Under the pieces are notes generated by a model. That model saw nothing but the letters and a program-made list of their open reading frames with translations. It did not search any database and was not told the DNA's origin. Positions 17,238 to 27,615 of a DNA stretch of 64,000 bases are shown piece after piece. This DNA is from an uncultured Haliea sp. (GTDB lineage: Bacteria; Pseudomonadota; Gammaproteobacteria; Pseudomonadales; Halieaceae). Positions within the stretch are counted from its first letter, which is position 1; every line of letters begins with the position of its first letter. Location of the stretch: the NCBI GenBank assembly GCA_913062625.1, contig CAJXWP010000006.1:1-64000 (forward strand), given 5' to 3'. The translations under genes were made by a program, and so were the position numbers.

Positions 17238-18527
17238 ATGTCTGACATTCTTGCTCAATCATTGAGGCTGCCCTGTGGAATAGCCCTAGAAAATCGCCTT
17301 GTGAAAGCCGCCATGACAGAAGGGCTTGCCAATCCCGCAGGAGTGCCGACGGCCGCTCTCGAACGGTTATATGGCCTGTGGAGTGACGGCGGTGCGGGGT
17401 TGCTTCTGTCCGGCAACATACTGGTGGACGGCGATCATCTAGAACGCCCCGGCAACGTCATCATAGATCAACCACCAAATGCAATCATGCACCAAGCGCT
17501 TTCGAGTTGGGCTAGAACAGCGACCCGCAACGGCAATCATTTCTGGGCGCAAATCAGCCATGCCGGGCGACAGACCCAAAAGGTTATCAACCCCAATCCA
17601 AAGGCTCCGTCTGCGGTAAAAATGGGTCTACCCGGAGGACAATTCGGCGAGCCGGTTGCAATGACGATGCCTGAGATCGAAGACATTGTGCGTCGCTTCG
17701 GCGTATGCGCTGCGGCCGTTAAAGCGGCAGGCTTTACCGGCGTCCAGATTCATGCGGCCCACGGCTATCTGCTGTCGCAGTTCCTCAGTCCGCGCACTAA
17801 TCTACGCAGTGACCAATACGGTGGTGAGCTGGCTAATCGTGCCCGGGCACTACTGGAGTGCGTTCGCGTAGTCCGCGAGTCGGTAGGCCAGGACTTTCCG
17901 GTAGCGGTCAAACTCAACAGTGCAGATTTTCAAAAAGGCGGTTTCGCTTTTGAAGACAGCCTGCAAGTGGCCCAATGGCTAGAAGCGGCAGGGATCGACG
18001 TAATAGAGATTTCCGGCGGGACTTACGAGCAACCCAAACTGCTTGGCGCTGAGGGAATTGAAGAAGAAGAGCAACAAAATGTTGCGCTCTCCACGCTGAT
18101 GCGCGAAGCCTACTTCGTTGATTTTGCGCTGGCCATGAAGGAAACGGTATCCGTTCCGCTTATGGTAACGGGTGGCTTCCGTCGACGCGCTGTGATGGAG
18201 CAGGCCATCACCGCTGGCGGTGCAGACCTGATCGGCCTTGGGCGACCATTGTGCGTCGTTACGGATGCACCTGCCAAATTATTGTCGGGAGCATTGGAGC
18301 TGCCGCGCTTTGAATCACAACTGGCAATGTTTCCGCCTTGGCTAACGTTTCTTAACCGCTCTAAAACCCTGCGCACGCTCGCGACCTTCGGCGTTCAATA
18401 CTGGTATTATGCGCAGCTGGACTCGCTTGGGGTTAATGGAAAAGCGGAACCGACCATGACCGTTTTCTCAGCGACGAGGAAGGTCATGTCTCAACAGAAG
18501 CGCTGGCTCGCTGCGCGGCGTCGATAG
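17238..18527 (+). CDS. NADH:flavin oxidoreductase (Old Yellow Enzyme family)
   Basis: The 429-residue enzyme is an FMN-dependent TIM barrel. Seen are RLVKAAMTEG near the N-terminus, QISHAGRQ near residue 110, the active-site QIHAAHGYLLSQFLSP near 175, the YGGELANRAR phosphate-binding block and ISGGTYEQP. OYE-type enzymes reduce activated C=C bonds of enones or 2,4-dienoyl-CoA-like substrates with NAD(P)H. There is no C-terminal FeS or NAD domain, so it is the short form. Start ATG 17238 follows AGGAA; the track start at 17220 lacks support. Its last 44 bases overlap the 3' end of the convergent SRPBCC-SDR gene. Confidence 0.92.
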   Translation: MSDILAQSLRLPCGIALENRLVKAAMTEGLANPAGVPTAALERLYGLWSDGGAGLLLSGNILVDGDHLERPGNVIIDQPPNAIMHQALSSWARTATRNGNHFWAQISHAGRQTQKVINPNPKAPSAVKMGLPGGQFGEPVAMTMPEIEDIVRRFGVCAAAVKAAGFTGVQIHAAHGYLLSQFLSPRTNLRSDQYGGELANRARALLECVRVVRESVGQDFPVAVKLNSADFQKGGFAFEDSLQVAQWLEAAGIDVIEISGGTYEQPKLLGAEGIEEEEQQNVALSTLMREAYFVDFALAMKETVSVPLMVTGGFRRRAVMEQAITAGGADLIGLGRPLCVVTDAPAKLLSGALELPRFESQLAMFPPWLTFLNRSKTLRTLATFGVQYWYYAQLDSLGVNGKAEPTMTVFSATRKVMSQQKRWLAARRR

Positions 18528-19923
18528 AACCTCTATTCGACGCCAGGAAATCCATGAGCTTCTCAGTTTCCTGACGAGACCCCTTGGTTTTACTGAGCAA
18601 GTGGACGGTATGCTCCGCTCGATCGAGAAACAATTTGCCACTAACTGAACCGGCCTCGGTGGCGACAGCCAACCAAACGATGGTGTCGGCGCCCTCCTCG
18701 GATGATCGCAGCACGTGGCGGGTGAGTTTGCGAAACTGAGGCAGCGCGCTGCGGACACCCGGCGTATCAGCCCATCCAGGGTGCATCGCGTTCACTACGA
18801 TACCTTCACCCTCCCACTCGGCGGCCCACTCCTGCGTCAACACCATCAATGCGCGTTTTTGTCGAGCATAAGCCTCACTACCCGAATATGCGGGGGTGTC
18901 AGGCACCAACAACTGTTCCACATTGAGCGCCTGACTGTACATGCCCCCCGAGACCACATTAATCACCCGAGGGGATGATGCCATCAAAAGAAGAGGCTTA
19001 AGTCCTTCGGTCAGACGATAAGGACTGAGCAGCAAAAGTGCAAAGCTTTGTTCCAGCCCTTCACTCGTTTCGCTTCGAGGATTAAAAAGTGCGCCGGCAT
19101 TATTGATTAGCACGTCGATAGGCCGTCCATTTTTCTTCATCCGTTCGACTAGGCTATCGACATCGGCCATCAGACTTAAATCCGCAAGCTCATAGCGTAT
19201 GTCGCTGTTTCCAGTTTCTAATTTTAGATCAGCGACAGCCTTTTCCGCCTTCACACGATCACGCACAACCAGCGTCAAGTCAGCACCGCGACGGGCCAGC
19301 TCCTGAGCGGTCGCATAACCTAGCCCTGATGATGCGCCAGTAATGACCATGTGCTTGTGCTTTACAGAGGCCGTCATAGGATGAAAGCGCTTGCGGCCGA
19401 GCTTATACCCAAGCCGCGAAAACAAAGACAATGCTGGAAGCACTAGTTTATCAGCGACCTTGTCGGTTGCGGTCGGCGTCTCGACAGGAAAGTTATCTTT
19501 CAGCGCACGTGCGAGTCCCGCTACCGAGTCTCTGCCCATACTCTCCAGTCCTTGCTGTGCGAATCCAGCGAGCGTCGACATCAACGGCTTAAAAAAGAAT
19601 TCAGCACGATAATCTATACGCGTTCCACCGGGCACATCAATAAACGAAATTGTGTCCTCAATATCAAAAAATCTGCAGCTCCCACTCAGCACAATGAGCA
19701 TATTGGCCTGCAGCGTTTTCACGGTGTAAAGCAGCGTAATACTCCCTATCGGAAGCGCGCACTCTACTTCGAATATTGTCCCTACGGCAACCGCGCCGGG
19801 CGTCAATTTGCGAGCCGCAACAGCGGTAGCGTCCCATTCAACGGTCGTGGTGAAATCGCTGACGTAGTCATAGACTTCCTCCGGAGAACGTTTTACATCA
19901 GCGATTTCATGTAGCACAGTCAT
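18484..19923 (-). CDS. Fusion of SRPBCC (START-like) domain with a short-chain dehydrogenase
   Basis: The 479-residue product joins two domains. Residues 1-145 look like an SRPBCC polyketide-cyclase-type fold that holds hydrophobic ligands: VKRSPEEVYDYVSDFTT, then GGTRIDYRAEFFFK and the amphipathic C-terminal helix. Residues ~190-440 are an SDR: TGASSGLG cofactor motif, INNAGAL, and catalytic Ser/Tyr/Lys in VVSGG and YARQK. A hydrophobic ligand may be carried from binding pocket to reductase site. It is last in the minus-strand run that starts at the FAD gene next to the ECF sigma factor, 38 bases after phr, so it may belong to the light-stress regulon. Substrate unknown. Confidence 0.88.
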   Translation of the reverse strand: MTVLHEIADVKRSPEEVYDYVSDFTTTVEWDATAVAARKLTPGAVAVGTIFEVECALPIGSITLLYTVKTLQANMLIVLSGSCRFFDIEDTISFIDVPGGTRIDYRAEFFFKPLMSTLAGFAQQGLESMGRDSVAGLARALKDNFPVETPTATDKVADKLVLPALSLFSRLGYKLGRKRFHPMTASVKHKHMVITGASSGLGYATAQELARRGADLTLVVRDRVKAEKAVADLKLETGNSDIRYELADLSLMADVDSLVERMKKNGRPIDVLINNAGALFNPRSETSEGLEQSFALLLLSPYRLTEGLKPLLLMASSPRVINVVSGGMYSQALNVEQLLVPDTPAYSGSEAYARQKRALMVLTQEWAAEWEGEGIVVNAMHPGWADTPGVRSALPQFRKLTRHVLRSSEEGADTIVWLAVATEAGSVSGKLFLDRAEHTVHLLSKTKGSRQETEKLMDFLASNRGSIDAAQRASASVET

Positions 19924-19961: not shown

Positions 19962-21425
19962 TTATCCTAACTTCATGTCCGCATAGGCGGCCAAAGCGGC
20001 ACCTCGTGCATCACGATGGTCAACAATAGGAAGCGGATATGTCTCACCCAATATGACGCCGGCGTCTTGCAACACTGCTGGGGGAGCCAGCGAGGGTTCA
20101 TGCAAGAATTTATTCGGCAACGCCGCCAGTTCCGGCAACCAGCGTCTCAGGTAGTCGCCATCACCATCGAATTTCTGTGCCTGTGTCGTTGGATTAAAGA
20201 TACGAAAATACGGCGACGCGTCGGCGCCACTGCCGGCAACCCACTGCCACCCGCAAGCATTGTTGGCTAAATCAGCATCCACGAGCGTGTCCCAAAACCA
20301 GCGTTCGCCGGACCGCCAGTCTACTAATAAATGCTTACACAAAAAAGAGGCAGCGACCATTCGCACGCGATTGTGCATATAACCCGTTTGCCACAGTTCT
20401 CGCATTCCTGCGTCAACGATAGGGTATCCCGTTTTTCCCTGCTGCCACGCGCTGAGTGCGTCCGCGCCCCCAATCCAAGGAAAAGCGTCGAAGTCAGACT
20501 TGAATGCGTGCGTCGGCATCGTAGGGAAGTGGAATAAAAGGTGATGAGAAAACTCACGCCAGCCCAATTCACTCAGAAATTTTTCAGCCTCATCACCCAG
20601 TTGTGGATCGACCAACTCAGCTTCCCTCACCGTGCAAAAAACCCTATGAGCCGCTATCTCTCCAAAGTGCAAATGTGGCGACAATCCGGATGTCGCGCCG
20701 CGAGCCGGATAATTCCTACCGCTATCGTACTGCGCTATAGCGCCGCGCATAAATACTTTGAGCTTGCGCGCGGCCCCCCGCTCTCCTGGCTGCCACATTT
20801 GCTCCCAGTCTGGCGCCCAGTTCGGCGTCATTGGCAACAGCTCTAGATCTGCAATGCGCAACGATGGTGCCTCGTAAGCGGCCCATGTTACAAAATCAGC
20901 CCTGAAAGTTGATGTCTCGGCGACGGTTAAGACCCGGCATTTTCGCCAAAACGGAGTGAACACTTTAAAAGGAGTGCCGGCTTTGTTTTTGATGGTCTCT
21001 GGCTCCCACAAGAGTGCCCCAGAATACCGCTTTAACACCACGCCCGTGCGCGAAAGCGCGTCGTGCAACTGTTCTTCCAACAAACGTGCCCACGGTTCAT
21101 AGTGTCGGGAGCAGCAAACAAGGTCAGTACCTGTGGCTTCTGCCAGCTGCGCAAGAATCACGTCGGGGCGGCCCCGCGACAAATGAAGCTGACCGCCCCT
21201 CTTCTCTATATCAGCCGCAAGGGAGGTCAAACTATGATGCAACCACCAGCGACTTGCACCGCCCAACTTCCAATCGCCCGGACTGTCGTCATCAAGGATG
21301 TAACAGGCTATCACCGGCCTGCCGCTTGCAAATGCCGCATTAAGCCCAGGAAGATCGTTCAACCGCAGATCTTGTCGAAACCAGTAGATGACGGGGCTCG
21401 CAATAGGGGCCTGAGGGGCTTTCAA
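19962..21425 (-). CDS. phrB: Class I deoxyribodipyrimidine photolyase (CPD photolyase)
   Basis: The ~487-residue flavoprotein uses blue light to split cyclobutane pyrimidine dimers. The N-terminal antenna-binding domain has VIYWFRQDLRLNDLPGL. The C-terminal FAD domain has GRNYPARGATSGLSPHLHFG, GYPIVDAGMRELWQTGYMHN, and NACGWQWVAGSGADASPYFR, with the tryptophan-rich electron path. Its start is a TTG overlapping the stop of the DUF2878 gene by four bases (TTGA), which indicates translational coupling. Photolyase, folE and cfa-like genes in one run beside ECF-ChrR match the known singlet-oxygen regulon theme. The antenna is probably a folate, which would fit the nearby folE. Confidence 0.95.
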   Translation of the reverse strand: MKAPQAPIASPVIYWFRQDLRLNDLPGLNAAFASGRPVIACYILDDDSPGDWKLGGASRWWLHHSLTSLAADIEKRGGQLHLSRGRPDVILAQLAEATGTDLVCCSRHYEPWARLLEEQLHDALSRTGVVLKRYSGALLWEPETIKNKAGTPFKVFTPFWRKCRVLTVAETSTFRADFVTWAAYEAPSLRIADLELLPMTPNWAPDWEQMWQPGERGAARKLKVFMRGAIAQYDSGRNYPARGATSGLSPHLHFGEIAAHRVFCTVREAELVDPQLGDEAEKFLSELGWREFSHHLLFHFPTMPTHAFKSDFDAFPWIGGADALSAWQQGKTGYPIVDAGMRELWQTGYMHNRVRMVAASFLCKHLLVDWRSGERWFWDTLVDADLANNACGWQWVAGSGADASPYFRIFNPTTQAQKFDGDGDYLRRWLPELAALPNKFLHEPSLAPPAVLQDAGVILGETYPLPIVDHRDARGAALAAYADMKLG

Positions 21426-22003
21426 ACGGGTGATCGCTGCCCGGCAGGACTTTTGGCCAGGGCACCGCCATCGCTACTGCGAGATATTTTGGCAGCAATT
21501 TTGAGAAATAACGGGAAGGCCACGGCCCACAGCGCGCCTATAATCACTGGACCCCAGAATAATGATCCAAACTCTATTGACGTTAATCGAACGCCTGCGA
21601 TGTAAGACATTGCTCCCCCAACTGCACCGAAAATAGTGGATAAAATAATCCTGTTCTGAAGCCAGTCAAAAGCGTGCATTAAGGTCGAGGCAAAGACTGG
21701 CCACAAACAGGTCAACCATAATGGCGCATAAGCCGACTGACCCTCCAAATTAAAGACACCCGCTGCGAACAGTATTTGATCAATCGCAAAACCAAACACT
21801 GTGACGCCGGCGATGAGCAATAATTCAGGCCTTCCTTTTCCCATACAATAAAAATGTGCCGACAAGTGCAGCAGCACAATTACTGGCGCAAGAAAAGACG
21901 ACTGCGTTAATAATATAGCGAACCAGCTGACATTGAACATCAGAACGTTGGCCACCTTGGCGGTTGCGGGGCCAGCCCAGCGGCTTGATTTGAACACGTT
22001 CAC
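21422..22003 (-). CDS. DUF2878 integral membrane protein
   Basis: The 193-residue protein is almost entirely hydrophobic, with about five or six membrane segments and the family pattern AGVFNLEGQSAYAPLWLTCLWPVFA. DUF2878 proteins are uncharacterised inner-membrane proteins often found beside photolyase, cfa and DUF1365 genes. The start is a GTG at 22003 with GAGGAGA 8-9 bases upstream. The stop overlaps the photolyase start by four bases, so the two are probably translated together. Its constant company with lipid-modifying and light-repair genes suggests an envelope role in oxidative stress, but this is inference. Confidence 0.85.
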   Translation of the reverse strand: MNVFKSSRWAGPATAKVANVLMFNVSWFAILLTQSSFLAPVIVLLHLSAHFYCMGKGRPELLLIAGVTVFGFAIDQILFAAGVFNLEGQSAYAPLWLTCLWPVFASTLMHAFDWLQNRIILSTIFGAVGGAMSYIAGVRLTSIEFGSLFWGPVIIGALWAVAFPLFLKIAAKISRSSDGGALAKSPAGQRSPV

Positions 22004-22073: not shown

Positions 22074-22757
22074 TTACGCAGAAAGGAATTCCGCTCGTGT
22101 GCGCGAATCTTTCTTGAACTGTCCACCGAGCGCAGTGGTGCGAGTTCGCGAGTTAGAGTCCATCACTCCTCTGGCTTTGACGCAGTAATGAACCGCATTG
22201 ATACTGACCGCTACGTCGTCCGTCTCCAAAAGCGTCTGTAAGGCTACCAGTACCTGCTGAGTCAGCCGTTCTTGAACCTGGGGCCGTTGGGCAAAGAATC
22301 GAACAATACGATTTACCTTCGACAAGCCGATGATCCTACTCGATGGGATATAAGCAACACTGGCCATGCCATCTATGGTGATGAAATGATGCTCACATGT
22401 ACTCACCACCGCAATATCATCAATTCGCACCATCTCCTCCACACCCATCTTATTGTCTATGGCGGTGGCTTTAGGAAAACGTGCATAGTCCAGCCCAGAG
22501 AATATTTCATCGACATACATCTTCGCGATACGCTTTGGCGTGTCGCACAAGCTATCGTCATCAAGATCCAGACCCAGCGTGGAAGCAATGTCTTCAAAGG
22601 CATCTTTGATTCGCTCAAACTTCTGGTCTCGGGTTAAGCCATTCTCTATCAAAGGCGTCTCAAGTCCGGACGCTAACAGCGCATCACGCACGTTCCGAGC
22701 ATCATCAGACATCACCCGTGGAGCGGCAATTATCGGTTGCATCAAGGCTTTTTCCAT
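22074..22757 (-). CDS. folE: GTP cyclohydrolase I
   Basis: The 227-residue enzyme opens GTP to 7,8-dihydroneopterin triphosphate, the first step to tetrahydrofolate and biopterins. Active-site and zinc residues are visible: STCEHHF near residue 120 (Cys, His, His), [15 protein letters not shown], and HYCVKARGV (Cys zinc ligand) near 190. The N-terminal ~35 residues are a variable extension; a second ATG at 22742 is possible. It lies 71 bases upstream of DUF2878 and 77 bases downstream of the cfa-like gene on the same strand. In this operon its likely purpose is to raise folate or pterin supply, for example for the photolyase antenna or protective pterins, during light stress. Confidence 0.95.
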
Positions 22758-22833: not shown

Positions 22834-24114
22834 TCATTCACATTCTAGCGCAGCTGAGCCCTTAAAACGGTAGCCAGGCTTAGCGAATGCCAATTGTACG
22901 GTGCTGATAACGCGCTCTCTGAAGCCTCCCTCGCAATAGCACAGGTAAAAATCCCACATTCGGACGAACTCCTCGCTGAAGCCCATGCCCCGAACTGCCT
23001 CGAGATTGGCAAGAAAGCGTTGGCGCCAATGCGCCAATGTTTCGGCATAATCATTCGTAATATCGCGTAAATGCACGATTTGCATGTCTGTGTCACGCGC
23101 AATATGGTCCGCCATCACTGCCACCGACGGCAAACAGCCGCCAGGGAAGATATAGCGCTTGATAAAGTCAACGGAATCTCGTGCCTCTTTGTAACGCTGA
23201 TCCGCCATTGTAATGGCCTGAATCACCATCTTTCCATCGGGCTTGAGAAGGCCAGAGCACATGCGGAAGTAACTCTGGTAGAAATCATGGCCCACCGCTT
23301 CTATCATCTCAACGGAAACCAGCTTGTCATATTCACCCGTGAGGTTGCGATAGTCTTCGCACAGCAGTGTAATCTGACTTTCAAGTCCTTCTTCCCTGAC
23401 TCTAGCTAGAGCGTAGTCATACTGCTCTTGCGATATGGTTGTGGTGGTGACACGACAACCGAAATTCTTCGCTGCATGGATTGCCATTCCACCCCAGCCG
23501 GTGCCTATTTCCAACAAATGATCATCGGCCTTCAATTCAAGCTGTTGGCAAAGTTCGTCGAGCTTAGTCTCCGACGCCACCTCAAGACTGACCGCATTGT
23601 CAGGAAACAAAGCCGACGAATACATCATTGTCGGATCAAGAAACAGCCGGAAAAACTCATTGCCAAGGTCATAGTGAGCAGCGATATTGAGTTGTGAACC
23701 CTTATGGGTATTGCGATTGAAGCGGTGAGCAATTTTCAATGCCCACCTGACGAAGACCGACTGACTCGCATCAAAATTATTCAGTAAAACGAGGTTCGCA
23801 CTGAATATTCGCATGACAGACATTGCATCAGGCGAAGACCAATACCCCTTCATATAAGCCTCACCGGATCCAATCGAGCCGCCGGTGAGCATTTGTGCAT
23901 AAAGAGCAGGACTGTGGACATGCACCTCGGCCTGCGGCTCATGTGGTTTGTCTATACTACCAAAATGATGACTGCAGGGTCCCTCATGCAGCGTCAGCGA
24001 GCCAATCTCCAGCTTACCCAGCAACCTAAATATGGCCTCCCTGGCTATTTTTTCTCCGACCCTAGCACTGCGCGTCTGTGGCAAACGCAACGTGCCGATA
24101 CTAACTTCACTCAT
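22834..24114 (-). CDS. Cyclopropane-fatty-acyl-phospholipid synthase family methyltransferase
   Basis: The 426-residue SAM-dependent enzyme has the family layout: N-terminal region with GSIGSGEAYMKGYWSSPD, then AAHYDLGNEFFRLFLDPTMMYSSALF, SAM motif LLEIGTGWGG near residue 200, VSVEMIEAVGH, and FIKRYIFPGGCLPS. These enzymes methylenate or methylate the cis double bonds of phospholipid acyl chains at the inner membrane. AGGAG precedes the ATG, which overlaps the DUF1365 stop by 8 bases. Homologues in ChrR regulons include Cfa and the UfaM-type methyltransferase of furan-fatty-acid synthesis. Adjacent FAD oxidoreductase makes either possible, so I do not give the symbol cfa. Confidence 0.92.
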   Translation of the reverse strand: MSEVSIGTLRLPQTRSARVGEKIAREAIFRLLGKLEIGSLTLHEGPCSHHFGSIDKPHEPQAEVHVHSPALYAQMLTGGSIGSGEAYMKGYWSSPDAMSVMRIFSANLVLLNNFDASQSVFVRWALKIAHRFNRNTHKGSQLNIAAHYDLGNEFFRLFLDPTMMYSSALFPDNAVSLEVASETKLDELCQQLELKADDHLLEIGTGWGGMAIHAAKNFGCRVTTTTISQEQYDYALARVREEGLESQITLLCEDYRNLTGEYDKLVSVEMIEAVGHDFYQSYFRMCSGLLKPDGKMVIQAITMADQRYKEARDSVDFIKRYIFPGGCLPSVAVMADHIARDTDMQIVHLRDITNDYAETLAHWRQRFLANLEAVRGMGFSEEFVRMWDFYLCYCEGGFRERVISTVQLAFAKPGYRFKGSAALECE

Positions 24115-24871
24115 TTTTTGCTCCTACCGCATCATTTGCGGGGTGTGTATAGACTGGCATTCCCTTAATGTAAAGTCGTAAGGCCTGCCAATAGATGGCA
24201 AGCGCTACCTTTAGCGACATCAGCGGATAACGGAAAAGTAACTTATTCAAATTGCTCACAGACATTGGCTGGGCTGATAACGCCAGCGTGGCATCAAACA
24301 CTTTTTTATCCTCTAAAAGATTCTCCATGTGCAAGACAAGCCGTCGATCAGGTGCGTTACTTCGCCAACGATAGCGCATGTTCATCGGGTTAAAGGGAGA
24401 CACGTGCAGTTGCTTGTCAAATGTCGTCCGCAACCAGCGGCCGTGTTCCGGGCCCATCAGCACATAACTATGGCGCTCGTTCCACGGCGTATTGTTCACC
24501 TCTGCAACAATATATTCTAAGCGCGTCTCATCTTCATTAAAGCAGTAATAACAAGCAATAGGATTCATTATAAATCCGAAGTAACACAAGTTCGCCAGTA
24601 AATAGATCGGGCCAACGTGCTCCGTATCGGTTTCCTCCCGTATTCGTCGCCGTACCTCATCCTGCAGGGGCAACGCAGGATCGCCGAGAAAATCACTACG
24701 CCGAAACTGGGCAAGAGCCCAGCCCGTGGCAGACCAGAACGGTGTTTTGGCAAAAATATTGGGTAATTCATCCAAACATAAATAGGGCATGATAACATTG
24801 TATTGAAACTCATGTTGCCCTGGCACTGACCGGCGGTGTCTGAGAATACCCCGGTAAATACGTGACTTCAT
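24107..24871 (-). CDS. DUF1365 family protein
   Basis: The 254-residue protein has the family signature: LCYFGFIMNPIACYYCFN around residues 95-112, then AEVNNTPWNERHSYVL and the H-V-S-P-F-N-P-M stretch. No signal peptide or membrane segment stands out except a weak hydrophobic C-terminus. DUF1365 genes nearly always lie between an FAD-dependent amine-oxidase-like gene and a cfa-like gene, as here. Start and stop overlap both neighbours (4 bases with the FAD gene, 8 with the methyltransferase), so the three are translationally coupled. A role in modified fatty-acid formation is likely; the reaction is not known to me. Confidence 0.9.
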   Translation of the reverse strand: MKSRIYRGILRHRRSVPGQHEFQYNVIMPYLCLDELPNIFAKTPFWSATGWALAQFRRSDFLGDPALPLQDEVRRRIREETDTEHVGPIYLLANLCYFGFIMNPIACYYCFNEDETRLEYIVAEVNNTPWNERHSYVLMGPEHGRWLRTTFDKQLHVSPFNPMNMRYRWRSNAPDRRLVLHMENLLEDKKVFDATLALSAQPMSVSNLNKLLFRYPLMSLKVALAIYWQALRLYIKGMPVYTHPANDAVGAKNE

Positions 24872-26130
24872 GCAGCCGCCACATGCTTGCTACACAGCCC
24901 GCTGGCAACACGGAGCGCACTCACTACGCCGTCCTCGTGGAAACCATTTTGCCAGTAGGCCCCGCAGTACCACGTACTGGCGACGCCATTGATTTGATGC
25001 CAGCGTTGTTGTGCGGCACACCCCTCTAGTGAGAACACCGGGTGATCATATTCAAAGCGGCCTATAATCTTATGTGGGTTGATTGCTGCCGTATTATTCA
25101 GCGTGACGCAAAATGTTTCGGGCGCCTGAATTCCCTGCAAAATGTTCATATTGTAGGTCACAATCGCCCGATTCTCTCTCTCCCCCAACGTATAGTTCCA
25201 GCTGCTCCATGTTTTCGTTTTACGTGGTAGCATGCGGATATCAGTATGCAACACCACGTCATTGGCTTGGTAGGGGATAGCGCTGAGAATTTCTGTCTCT
25301 AACGCAGACGGCTCTTCCAATAGCGCCAGCGCCTGGTCAGAGTGGGTCGCAAAGACTACCTGATCAAAGTGCAGTCGCTGGCCATCTGCCATCGTCAAAG
25401 ACACGCCTTTTTCGGCATGCCGAGCAACCCGAATCACCGCGTTGCCGGTCGAAATGCGCTCTGAGAATCGCGCGCACAGGGGGCGCAGATACTCCCTAGA
25501 GCCTCCCTCAATAACCCGCCACTGGGGCCTGTCTTTCACCGACAGCAACCCGTGATTGCGAAAAAACTTCAGGAAAAAAATAACCGGAAAATCCAGAATA
25601 GTGTCGCAGTCAGCAGACCAAATAGCAGAGCCCATAGCGGCCAAATAGTGGCGCTTAAACTTCTCACTGTAGCCCCTTCGCACAAGGTAGGCCCCCAGTG
25701 TTTCATTCTCTTGAATCCTACCCTCGTCAAGGTCAACCACTGCTTCGCGATTAAAACGTAGAATATCTCGCACCATACCAATAAAAGGTAACGATATAAG
25801 ATTACGACGCTGGGCAAAGAGCGTATCGAGATTGGTGCCAGAGTATTCAAGACCAGACTCAGGATCTCGCACGCTAAAACCCATGGCAGTCGGTTTGCTA
25901 GACACACCCAGTTCGTCCATCAGCGCAATGAAATTGGGATAGGTCCAATCGTTGAATACGATGAACCCAGTGTCGATGGCGTAATGACGGGTGCCCAGTT
26001 TCACGTCCACTGTGGCTGTGTGGCCGCCAATCTTCCGTGCAGCCTCATAGACCCAGACCTCGTGTTCATCGCTAAGGTAGTGTGCACAGGCTAGCCCCGA
26101 TATACCTGAGCCGATAACGGCAACTTTCAT
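24868..26130 (-). CDS. FAD-dependent oxidoreductase (amine oxidase/phytoene-desaturase superfamily)
   Basis: The 420-residue protein starts with a dinucleotide-binding Rossmann motif, AVIGSGISGLACAHYL, followed by the WVYEAARKIGGHTATV stretch seen in the 'predicted NAD/FAD-binding protein' group adjacent to DUF1365 and Cfa. YAIDTGFIVFNDWTYPN and the C-terminal YCGAYWQNGFHEDGVVSA are characteristic. In Rhodobacter sphaeroides, related flavoproteins of the sigmaE-ChrR regulon take part in making furan fatty acids; a desaturase or oxygenase-like step on methylated acyl chains is therefore plausible. It is the first gene of the minus-strand operon and is preceded by a promoter matching that of the divergent sigma gene. 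Confidence 0.9.
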   Translation of the reverse strand: MKVAVIGSGISGLACAHYLSDEHEVWVYEAARKIGGHTATVDVKLGTRHYAIDTGFIVFNDWTYPNFIALMDELGVSSKPTAMGFSVRDPESGLEYSGTNLDTLFAQRRNLISLPFIGMVRDILRFNREAVVDLDEGRIQENETLGAYLVRRGYSEKFKRHYLAAMGSAIWSADCDTILDFPVIFFLKFFRNHGLLSVKDRPQWRVIEGGSREYLRPLCARFSERISTGNAVIRVARHAEKGVSLTMADGQRLHFDQVVFATHSDQALALLEEPSALETEILSAIPYQANDVVLHTDIRMLPRKTKTWSSWNYTLGERENRAIVTYNMNILQGIQAPETFCVTLNNTAAINPHKIIGRFEYDHPVFSLEGCAAQQRWHQINGVASTWYCGAYWQNGFHEDGVVSALRVASGLCSKHVAAA

Positions 26131-26185: not shown

Positions 26186-26212
26186 ATACGGCAATAGCCC
26201 AAAGATGGATCA
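26186..26212 (-). promoter_or_regulatory. ECF-type promoter of the FAD/DUF1365/cfa/folE/phr operon
   Basis: On the minus strand TGATCC (26212-26207) is followed by ATCT and, 16 bases after TGATCC, CGTAT (26190-26186). The first ten bases, TGATCCATCT, are identical to those in front of the sigma gene. The TGATC -35 box is the one known for ChrR-linked ECF sigma factors. The start of transcription would lie about 45-50 bases before the ATG at 26130. Confidence 0.8.
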
Positions 26213-26293
26213 ATTTTGCCGATATTCTACAGGGATTTTGCGCCCATGCAGCGTACGTGGCGCAATCGCCTGTTAATTCATGCTGAATTCGAG

Positions 26294-26320
26294 TGATCCA
26301 TCTGCCTGTTCACGCGTATA
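26294..26320 (+). promoter_or_regulatory. ECF-type autoregulated promoter of the sigma-chrR operon
   Basis: TGATCC at 26294-26299 is followed after 15 bases by CGTATA (26315-26320). It resembles the divergent promoter at 26186-26212 in both boxes. The ATG at 26349 follows with a leader of about 20 bases, which also shows that the track start at 26280, lying before the promoter, is wrong. The arrangement implies positive autoregulation of the sigma factor. Confidence 0.8.
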
Positions 26321-26348: not shown

Positions 26349-26957
26349 ATGTTGACTGTGACAGACAAGTTTGATGATGAGACAGACTCCCAAGTCGAGC
26401 CTAGCGGGAAGCGCACCGATGAGTGGAGCGAGTGTCTTACCTTAATTGGGAAGAACGAAGATCGAGCGGCGTTTACACGACTGTTTCGGCATTTTGCTCC
26501 GTTGATGAAGGCGTTCGCGTTATCCGGCTCCACGCTGTCTGCAAATAACGCGGATGAGTTGGTGCAAGAAGTCATGTTAAAAGTGTGGCAGAAAGCTGGA
26601 GCTTTTAACGCAGAAAAGGCGGCTGCTAGCACGTGGATTTATACGATAGCCCGCAATAGTAGAACCGATTTATTTCGCCGTCTGCAGAAATTTGACACCC
26701 CACTATCAGCCGATGACGTATCAGGTTCACAAGAAAGTGAAGAGGCGTTCATGGTGCTGCATCAGAAGCGCGGCAGAGATAGGATTAGAGCGCTCATCAA
26801 TGAACTACCTAACGATCAAGCCCAAATTCTCGCAAAAGTGTATATGGAGGGCAAATCTCATTCTGAAGTTGCCGGAGAACTGGACATCCCATTGGGAACC
26901 GTAAAGTCGCGCGTGCGACTGGCTCTCCAGAAACTACAAATCCGATTTGAGGACTAA
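26349..26957 (+). CDS. rpoE: RNA polymerase ECF sigma factor, ChrR-associated (RpoE-like, ECF11 type)
   Basis: The 202-residue protein has only the sigma2 and sigma4 domains of ECF factors. Sigma2, residues ~30-120, contains DELVQEVMLKVWQKA and ASTWIYTIARNSRTDLFRR. Sigma4, residues ~140-200, contains RALINELPNDQAQILAKVYMEG and the helix-turn-helix SEVAGELDIPLGTVKSRVRLAL. The gene is followed after 4 bases by a ChrR-type anti-sigma factor and preceded by its own TGATCC promoter. In characterised systems this sigma factor is freed when singlet oxygen triggers ChrR loss, then turns on photolyase and lipid-modifying genes; the divergent operon here fits that role. The symbol follows Rhodobacter use, not E. 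coli RpoE. Confidence 0.93.
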   Translation: MLTVTDKFDDETDSQVEPSGKRTDEWSECLTLIGKNEDRAAFTRLFRHFAPLMKAFALSGSTLSANNADELVQEVMLKVWQKAGAFNAEKAAASTWIYTIARNSRTDLFRRLQKFDTPLSADDVSGSQESEEAFMVLHQKRGRDRIRALINELPNDQAQILAKVYMEGKSHSEVAGELDIPLGTVKSRVRLALQKLQIRFED

Positions 26958-26961
26958 TAAT

Positions 26962-27615
26962 ATGACGAATTTTCACCCAGATCTCGACCTTATCACAGAA
27001 TATACAGCGGGTTCCTTGCCGCTGACTCAGTCAGCTTGTGTCTCGCTTCATATTTCTCACTGCCGACGGTGCCAGGGCATTGCTGGGCAGCTGTCAGACC
27101 TGGGCGCAAGTTTATTCGAAGCACTGGAACCGGCCCCCGTTGGTGACGCACAGTTGAATGCGGTACTCGCTAGGCTAGACGAAGAAGTTCCATTGTCGTA
27201 TGCGAGGACGAGCAAGGATACCAGCAACACGCCCGCAATCTTGCAGCGTTTGATGCGTGGGGATTTCAGCGACTTGAGTTGGAAAAATATTGGATCCACA
27301 TTACGCATCAGCTATCTGCAGGCGGGTGATCCACAACATGAGCTGGCCATCTACCACTTCAATGCAGGAGGCCGTATTCCTGAGCACACTCATCGCGGGA
27401 GTGAAATGACGCTGATACTTCAGGGCGGTTTCTCGGATGCTCACGGCAGTTATCACAAGGGTGATTTTTTGGTTCGCCGGCAGGGCGACGTGCATGCTCC
27501 TACAGCCCTTCAGTCTGAAGACTGCATCTGTCTCGTCGTCTTGGACGCGCCGCTAAAGTTCATAGATTGGAAGTTTCGCTGGATGAACCCCTTTCTGAAA
27601 TTACGCACTGTTTGA
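26962..27615 (+). CDS. chrR: ChrR-type anti-sigma factor (zinc ASD plus cupin)
   Basis: The 217-residue protein has two domains. The N-terminal anti-sigma domain shows His5 and His30-x3-Cys34-x2-Cys37 (HISHCRRC), nearly the same positions as the four zinc ligands described for Rhodobacter ChrR. The C-terminal cupin domain has EHTHRGSEMTLILQGGF and GDFLVRRQGDVHAP, supplying the second metal site needed for response to singlet oxygen. It should bind and silence the sigma factor encoded 4 bases upstream. ATG 26962 has GAGGA 8 bases upstream; the track start at 26947 (TTG) overlaps the sigma gene and is less likely. The gene is convergent with an SDR, only 19 bases away. Confidence 0.93.
   Translation: MTNFHPDLDLITEYTAGSLPLTQSACVSLHISHCRRCQGIAGQLSDLGASLFEALEPAPVGDAQLNAVLARLDEEVPLSYARTSKDTSNTPAILQRLMRGDFSDLSWKNIGSTLRISYLQAGDPQHELAIYHFNAGGRIPEHTHRGSEMTLILQGGFSDAHGSYHKGDFLVRRQGDVHAPTALQSEDCICLVVLDAPLKFIDWKFRWMNPFLKLRTV

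Follow-up and report, generated by a model that had tools for sequence, protein, structure and literature searches.

The locus raises a simple question: are two matched TGATCC/CGTAT sites, which point in opposite directions between an ECF sigma-chrR gene pair and a run of genes that includes a photolyase gene, promoters recognized by that same sigma factor? The sites lie in the window (the whole stretch of 64,000 nucleotides analyzed, from an uncultured Haliea sp.), and a preliminary description took them to define a self-contained, autoregulated locus. From the protein families, the sites, and their conservation in relatives, we consider it very probable that the ECF11 sigma factor reads both divergent promoters and that the full mechanism operates as set out below.

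ECF11 sigma factor and ChrR

The gene at 26349..26957 (+ strand) encodes a 202-aa RNA polymerase sigma factor of the ECF11 type, with regions 2 and 4 (Pfam Sigma70_r2/r4_2). It is nearest to Rhodobacter sphaeroides RpoE (sigma-E), its best PDB match (2q1z_A, E value = 7.4e-32). The mechanically called reading frame opens at 26280, before the promoter, and runs through it. That position is unlikely to mark the true start, and 26349, downstream of the promoter, was taken instead. Adjacent and codirectional is the gene for a ChrR anti-sigma factor (26962..27615, + strand) with a zinc anti-sigma domain and a cupin domain. This protein scores 155 bits against TIGR02451 (cutoff, 124.5) and matches 2z2s_B (E value = 8.4e-31) with all eight zinc ligands aligned; its N-terminal H5, H30, C34, and C37 and its C-terminal cupin HxH...E...H agree with those of R. 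sphaeroides ChrR. Pfam, TIGR02451, and PDB matches thus bear out the pair as an ECF11-like sigma factor with its ChrR, and TGATCC/CGTA, the promoter motif of the ECF11 type, stands upstream of the sigma gene. No second sigma factor of the ECF11 type was found in the genome.

Two divergent promoter sites

The intergenic region between the sigma gene and the divergent FAD gene is 218 bp long and holds both sites. On the + strand, the putative sigma-gene promoter consists of a -35 element, TGATCC (26294..26299), and a -10 element, CGTAT (26315..26319), separated by a 15-nt spacer, with 30 nt from CGTAT to the likely sigma ATG at 26349. On the - strand, the putative operon promoter consists of TGATCC (26207..26212) and CGTAT (26186..26190) with a 16-nt spacer, and its CGTAT lies about 56 nt from the FAD-gene ATG at 26130. 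Both -35 elements were read directly from the sequence, and in relatives they are kept at the same places, one ahead of the sigma gene and the other ahead of the divergent FAD gene. The opposed sites and their spacers are therefore as first described. The motif also equals promoters mapped experimentally in Shewanella, where RpoE2-ChrR promoters read TGATCC...CGTATT, have mapped start sites, and are autoregulated (PMC4336711), which bears out the association of the TGATC box with ChrR-partner sigma factors given in the preliminary description. Transcription probably starts from both sites here as well. A search of the intergenic region found no sigma-70-like site on the + strand, and the operon side is overlapped by a weak sigma-70-like match (9/12) that is no more than expected by chance.

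The short motif by itself has little genome-wide specificity. The search for TGATCC-N15/16-CGTAT proposed in the preliminary description returned 4 matches in the 3.07-Mb genome versus 3 for a reversed control pattern, and a looser form returned 25 versus 10. A count so barely above its control was dropped as sole evidence. Two of the four matches form the divergent pair within the one 218-bp region, each oriented correctly before its gene; this placement is suggestive, and the stronger test is conservation.

The window contains exactly two copies of TGATCCATCT, one at each promoter site and in opposite orientations, and the pair is the sole inverted repeat of at least 9 nt in the intergenic region. 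A perfect 10-nt inverted repeat of this kind, TGATCCATCT...AGATGGATCA, could instead be an operator, bound by a dimeric repressor or activator that would bend the DNA between the genes or draw it into a loop, and the pair would then not represent two promoters. The variation among relatives bears directly on this choice.

Conservation of the sites among relatives

Relatives were collected from whole genomes and from genomes of named species, and the best named matches were Halieaceae (Luminiphilus, Pseudohaliea, and Haliea). This yielded 152 distinct loci, and the 76 with a divergent FAD gene adjoining the sigma gene were the set in which the pattern TGATC[CT]-N15/16-CGTA was counted. A sense site was present in 57/76 loci, an antisense site in 63/76, and both in 48/76, counts that come from related loci and do not represent independent events; dinucleotide shuffles of the same regions gave expectations of 0.00 and 0.05. 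Chance is excluded by this strong conservation together with the divergent placement of two of the four genomic matches in one intergenic region. Across the loci, the sigma proteins share as little as about 40% identity and most spacer bases vary, a pattern that favors selection acting on the boxes. Nearly all spacers measure 15 to 17 nt (N15 to N17 on the sigma side; 16 nt in 63 sites and 17 nt in 6 on the operon side), and the sense site of the closest loci stays 45 to 65 nt or so from the sigma start.

The information is found mainly in the -35 and -10 columns. The conserved parts are TGATCC, CGTA, and a purine-rich position following TGATCC, and in the N15 class on the sigma side an extended -10 element, CGTATACT, is strongly conserved. 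The shared ten-base block that had been singled out earlier is indeed identical in the two promoters here, but only its TGATCC and the following purine are conserved; an ATCT common to both sites is unique to this genome (1/48 loci), and the block was rejected as a meaningful unit. The same comparison largely refutes a looped operator. Relatives place the two TGATCC boxes anywhere from about 10 to 170 nt apart, a spread at odds with a fixed geometry; the ATCT half of the repeat is not conserved; and each box keeps CGTA 15 to 17 nt away on its promoter side. We regard an operator as extremely unlikely and read the pair as two promoters.

Divergent operon and its probable link to furan fatty acids

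Pfam confirms the described run of genes behind the second promoter, a set concerned with membrane lipids and DNA repair. All are on the - strand and overlap or lie no more than about 76 nt apart, and they are presumably cotranscribed. The run begins with a FAD amine-oxidase-like protein (candidate UfaD; 24868..26130; PF01593), a DUF1365 protein (candidate UfaO; 24107..24871; PF07103, E value = 1.1e-75), and a CFA/CMAS-like S-adenosylmethionine (SAM) methyltransferase (candidate UfaM; 22834..24114; PF02353, E value = 1.4e-83). It continues with GTP cyclohydrolase I (folE; 22074..22757; PF01227 and NF006824, above cutoff), a DUF2878 protein (21422..22003; PF11086), and a DNA photolyase (phr; 19962..21425; PF00875 and PF03441), and the last gene encodes a polyketide-cyclase-like and SDR fusion protein (18484..19923; PF10604 and PF00106). 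The antisense site counted above thus stands before a UfaD-type/cfa/phr gene set, identified by Pfam in the window.

LitR-type MerR regulators are reported to control similar gene sets in other bacteria, and the operon could accordingly answer to a light-sensing regulator of this family, with the TGATC site secondary. Only two MerR-type genes were found in the genome (96.67% complete), both on other contigs, and their open frames of 124 and 153 aa cannot accommodate a LitR that carries a B12 domain. Control by LitR is therefore very unlikely here, even though the Vibrio cholerae blue-light response is reported to use both MerR and ChrR (PMC5241685). We retain the sigma factor as the probable regulator of the operon.

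The first three genes of the operon, which encode a FAD oxidoreductase, a DUF1365 protein, and a CFA-type methylase together, resemble ufaD-ufaO-ufaM, the genes of furan fatty acid synthesis, in which UfaO contains DUF1365 (PMC7380195). Judged by protein kind and gene order as given in the literature, the FAD-DUF1365-CFA series has the order of Rhodopseudomonas palustris RPA2571-2570-2569, and these three genes, when moved into R. sphaeroides, led to the production of furan fatty acid (PMC7380195). Furan fatty acids are a probable product of the Haliea operon. These lipids promote ChrR turnover, and without the genes for them singlet oxygen does not fully activate sigma-E (PMC6852236), suggesting positive feedback.

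Candidate regulon members outside the locus

Two further genes on other contigs are preceded by conserved sites. A DASH cryptochrome gene has TGATCC-N16-CGTA 89 nt upstream (C7:59073; L095:1574-1663). This site is kept in 2/2 close orthologues including the one in this genome (the other is L185), and distant homologues (41 to 43% identity) are mostly without it. A fasciclin-domain gene has TGATCC-N16-CGTA 86 nt upstream (C1:38691; L002:1501-1587), kept in 3/3 close orthologues including this genome (also L183 and L184), and the fasciclin gene RSP_1409 belongs to the RpoE regulon of R. sphaeroides (PMC7074977). These conserved sites make it probable that the sigma factor controls genes dispersed in the genome, and the idea of a self-contained locus is not upheld.

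Two other candidates were judged weak. A Nei/Fpg-type DNA glycosylase gene (C25) has TGATCC-N16-CGTAT directed toward it (L011:1501-1527), about 225 nt upstream and thus more than 200 nt away, and the site is kept in 3/6 loci (also L197 and L198; missing in L199 to L201). The site at an acyl-CoA dehydrogenase gene (C85) is inconsistent among relatives.

Proposed regulation and comparison with known systems

We propose that ChrR keeps the sigma factor inactive until photo-oxidative stress, probably singlet oxygen or organic hydroperoxide, leads to the loss of ChrR. The freed sigma factor would then direct RNA polymerase to TGATCC-N15/16-CGTA, raising its own expression and that of ChrR, and would turn on the run of ufaDOM-like, folE, DUF2878, phr, and SDR genes and, beyond the locus, at least the genes for the DASH cryptochrome and the fasciclin protein. 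Should the first three genes of the operon produce furan fatty acid, as happens in Rhodobacter, their expression would also help destroy ChrR and so close a positive-feedback loop.

Matching systems in Shewanella, Pseudomonas syringae, and R. sphaeroides place the present locus in a known and well-studied kind. Shewanella oneidensis RpoE2-ChrR (SO_1986-SO_1985) has the same promoter motif and a regulon that includes a photolyase/cfa cluster; unlike the Haliea operon, this cluster (SO_3386-3379) lies at a distance from the sigma gene, whose listed neighboring target is a Lon-domain protease gene (SO_1987). In P. syringae, chromatin immunoprecipitation sequencing (ChIP-seq) of PSPTO_1043 placed the same motif before the sigma-chrR pair (PSPTO_1043-1042) and before a phrB run with orthologues of the FAD, RSP_1090-type, and cfa genes (PMC5507510), but there sigma gene and operon are unlinked and several additional targets are species specific. 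In R. sphaeroides, RpoE (RSP_1092) and ChrR are likewise an ECF11 sigma factor and a ChrR with the same zinc ligands, and rpoE-chrR is preceded by an RpoE-dependent operon, RSP_1091-1087, that includes UfaD and UfaO (PMC7074977). However, ufaM (RSP_2144) and phrA (RSP_2143) occupy a separate locus in that organism, whereas CFA/UfaM-like, folE, DUF2878, and phr genes belong to the same run in Haliea. R. sphaeroides is also phototrophic, whereas no reaction-centre gene was found in the present genome at 96.67% completeness.

The general picture of ECF11-ChrR regulation is unchanged by this locus. What the comparison adds is a firm and conserved promoter model for the sigma factor of photo-oxidative stress in an abundant marine family, together with candidate regulon genes beyond the locus and furan fatty acids as a probable product.

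Variation in the likely autoregulatory promoter

The sigma-side promoter, with its motif and its conservation in 57/76 loci, is likely autoregulatory, as had been claimed for the locus. Autoregulation is not universal, since the sigma-side site is missing in several Halieaceae and both sites are missing in some loci; of the two halves, the autoregulatory one is the less constant. Some Halieaceae loci (such as L036, L101, L102, L107, and L109) keep the operon-side site and have no recognizable sigma-side site, and in four more (L072, L073, L108, and L110) both sites are missing while the divergent gene order is kept. Loci with only the operon-side site lend some weight to an arrangement in which only the operon-side promoter depends on the sigma factor and the sigma gene is expressed mainly from a housekeeping promoter, with weak or absent autoregulation. 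For the present genome we consider this unlikely: the sigma-side site is intact here and in the closest relatives, with little change in its distance to the start codon, the extended -10 element is strongly conserved in its class, and the + strand yielded no sigma-70-like site. Dependence of both promoters on the sigma factor remains the preferred reading.

A more tentative extension concerns Halieaceae, including this genome with no reaction centre detected. The divergent pair may tie the sigma factor to the full set of furan-lipid genes that its own release from ChrR requires, forming a one-locus positive-feedback switch, and some relatives may have replaced the sigma-side promoter and so turned an autoregulated loop into a feed-forward arrangement only. 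We regard this as possible though rather doubtful.

The five loci named above that have only the operon-side site carry sequences such as TGTATGCT at the CGTAT position upstream of the sigma gene, perhaps reflecting a switch to another promoter type. One further locus (L089, genome G004) has an extra TGATCC-N16-CGTA site inside the run, with the CFA gene on one side and folE on the other, ~4519 nt upstream of the sigma start, which suggests that folE and the genes that follow it can have a sigma promoter of their own.
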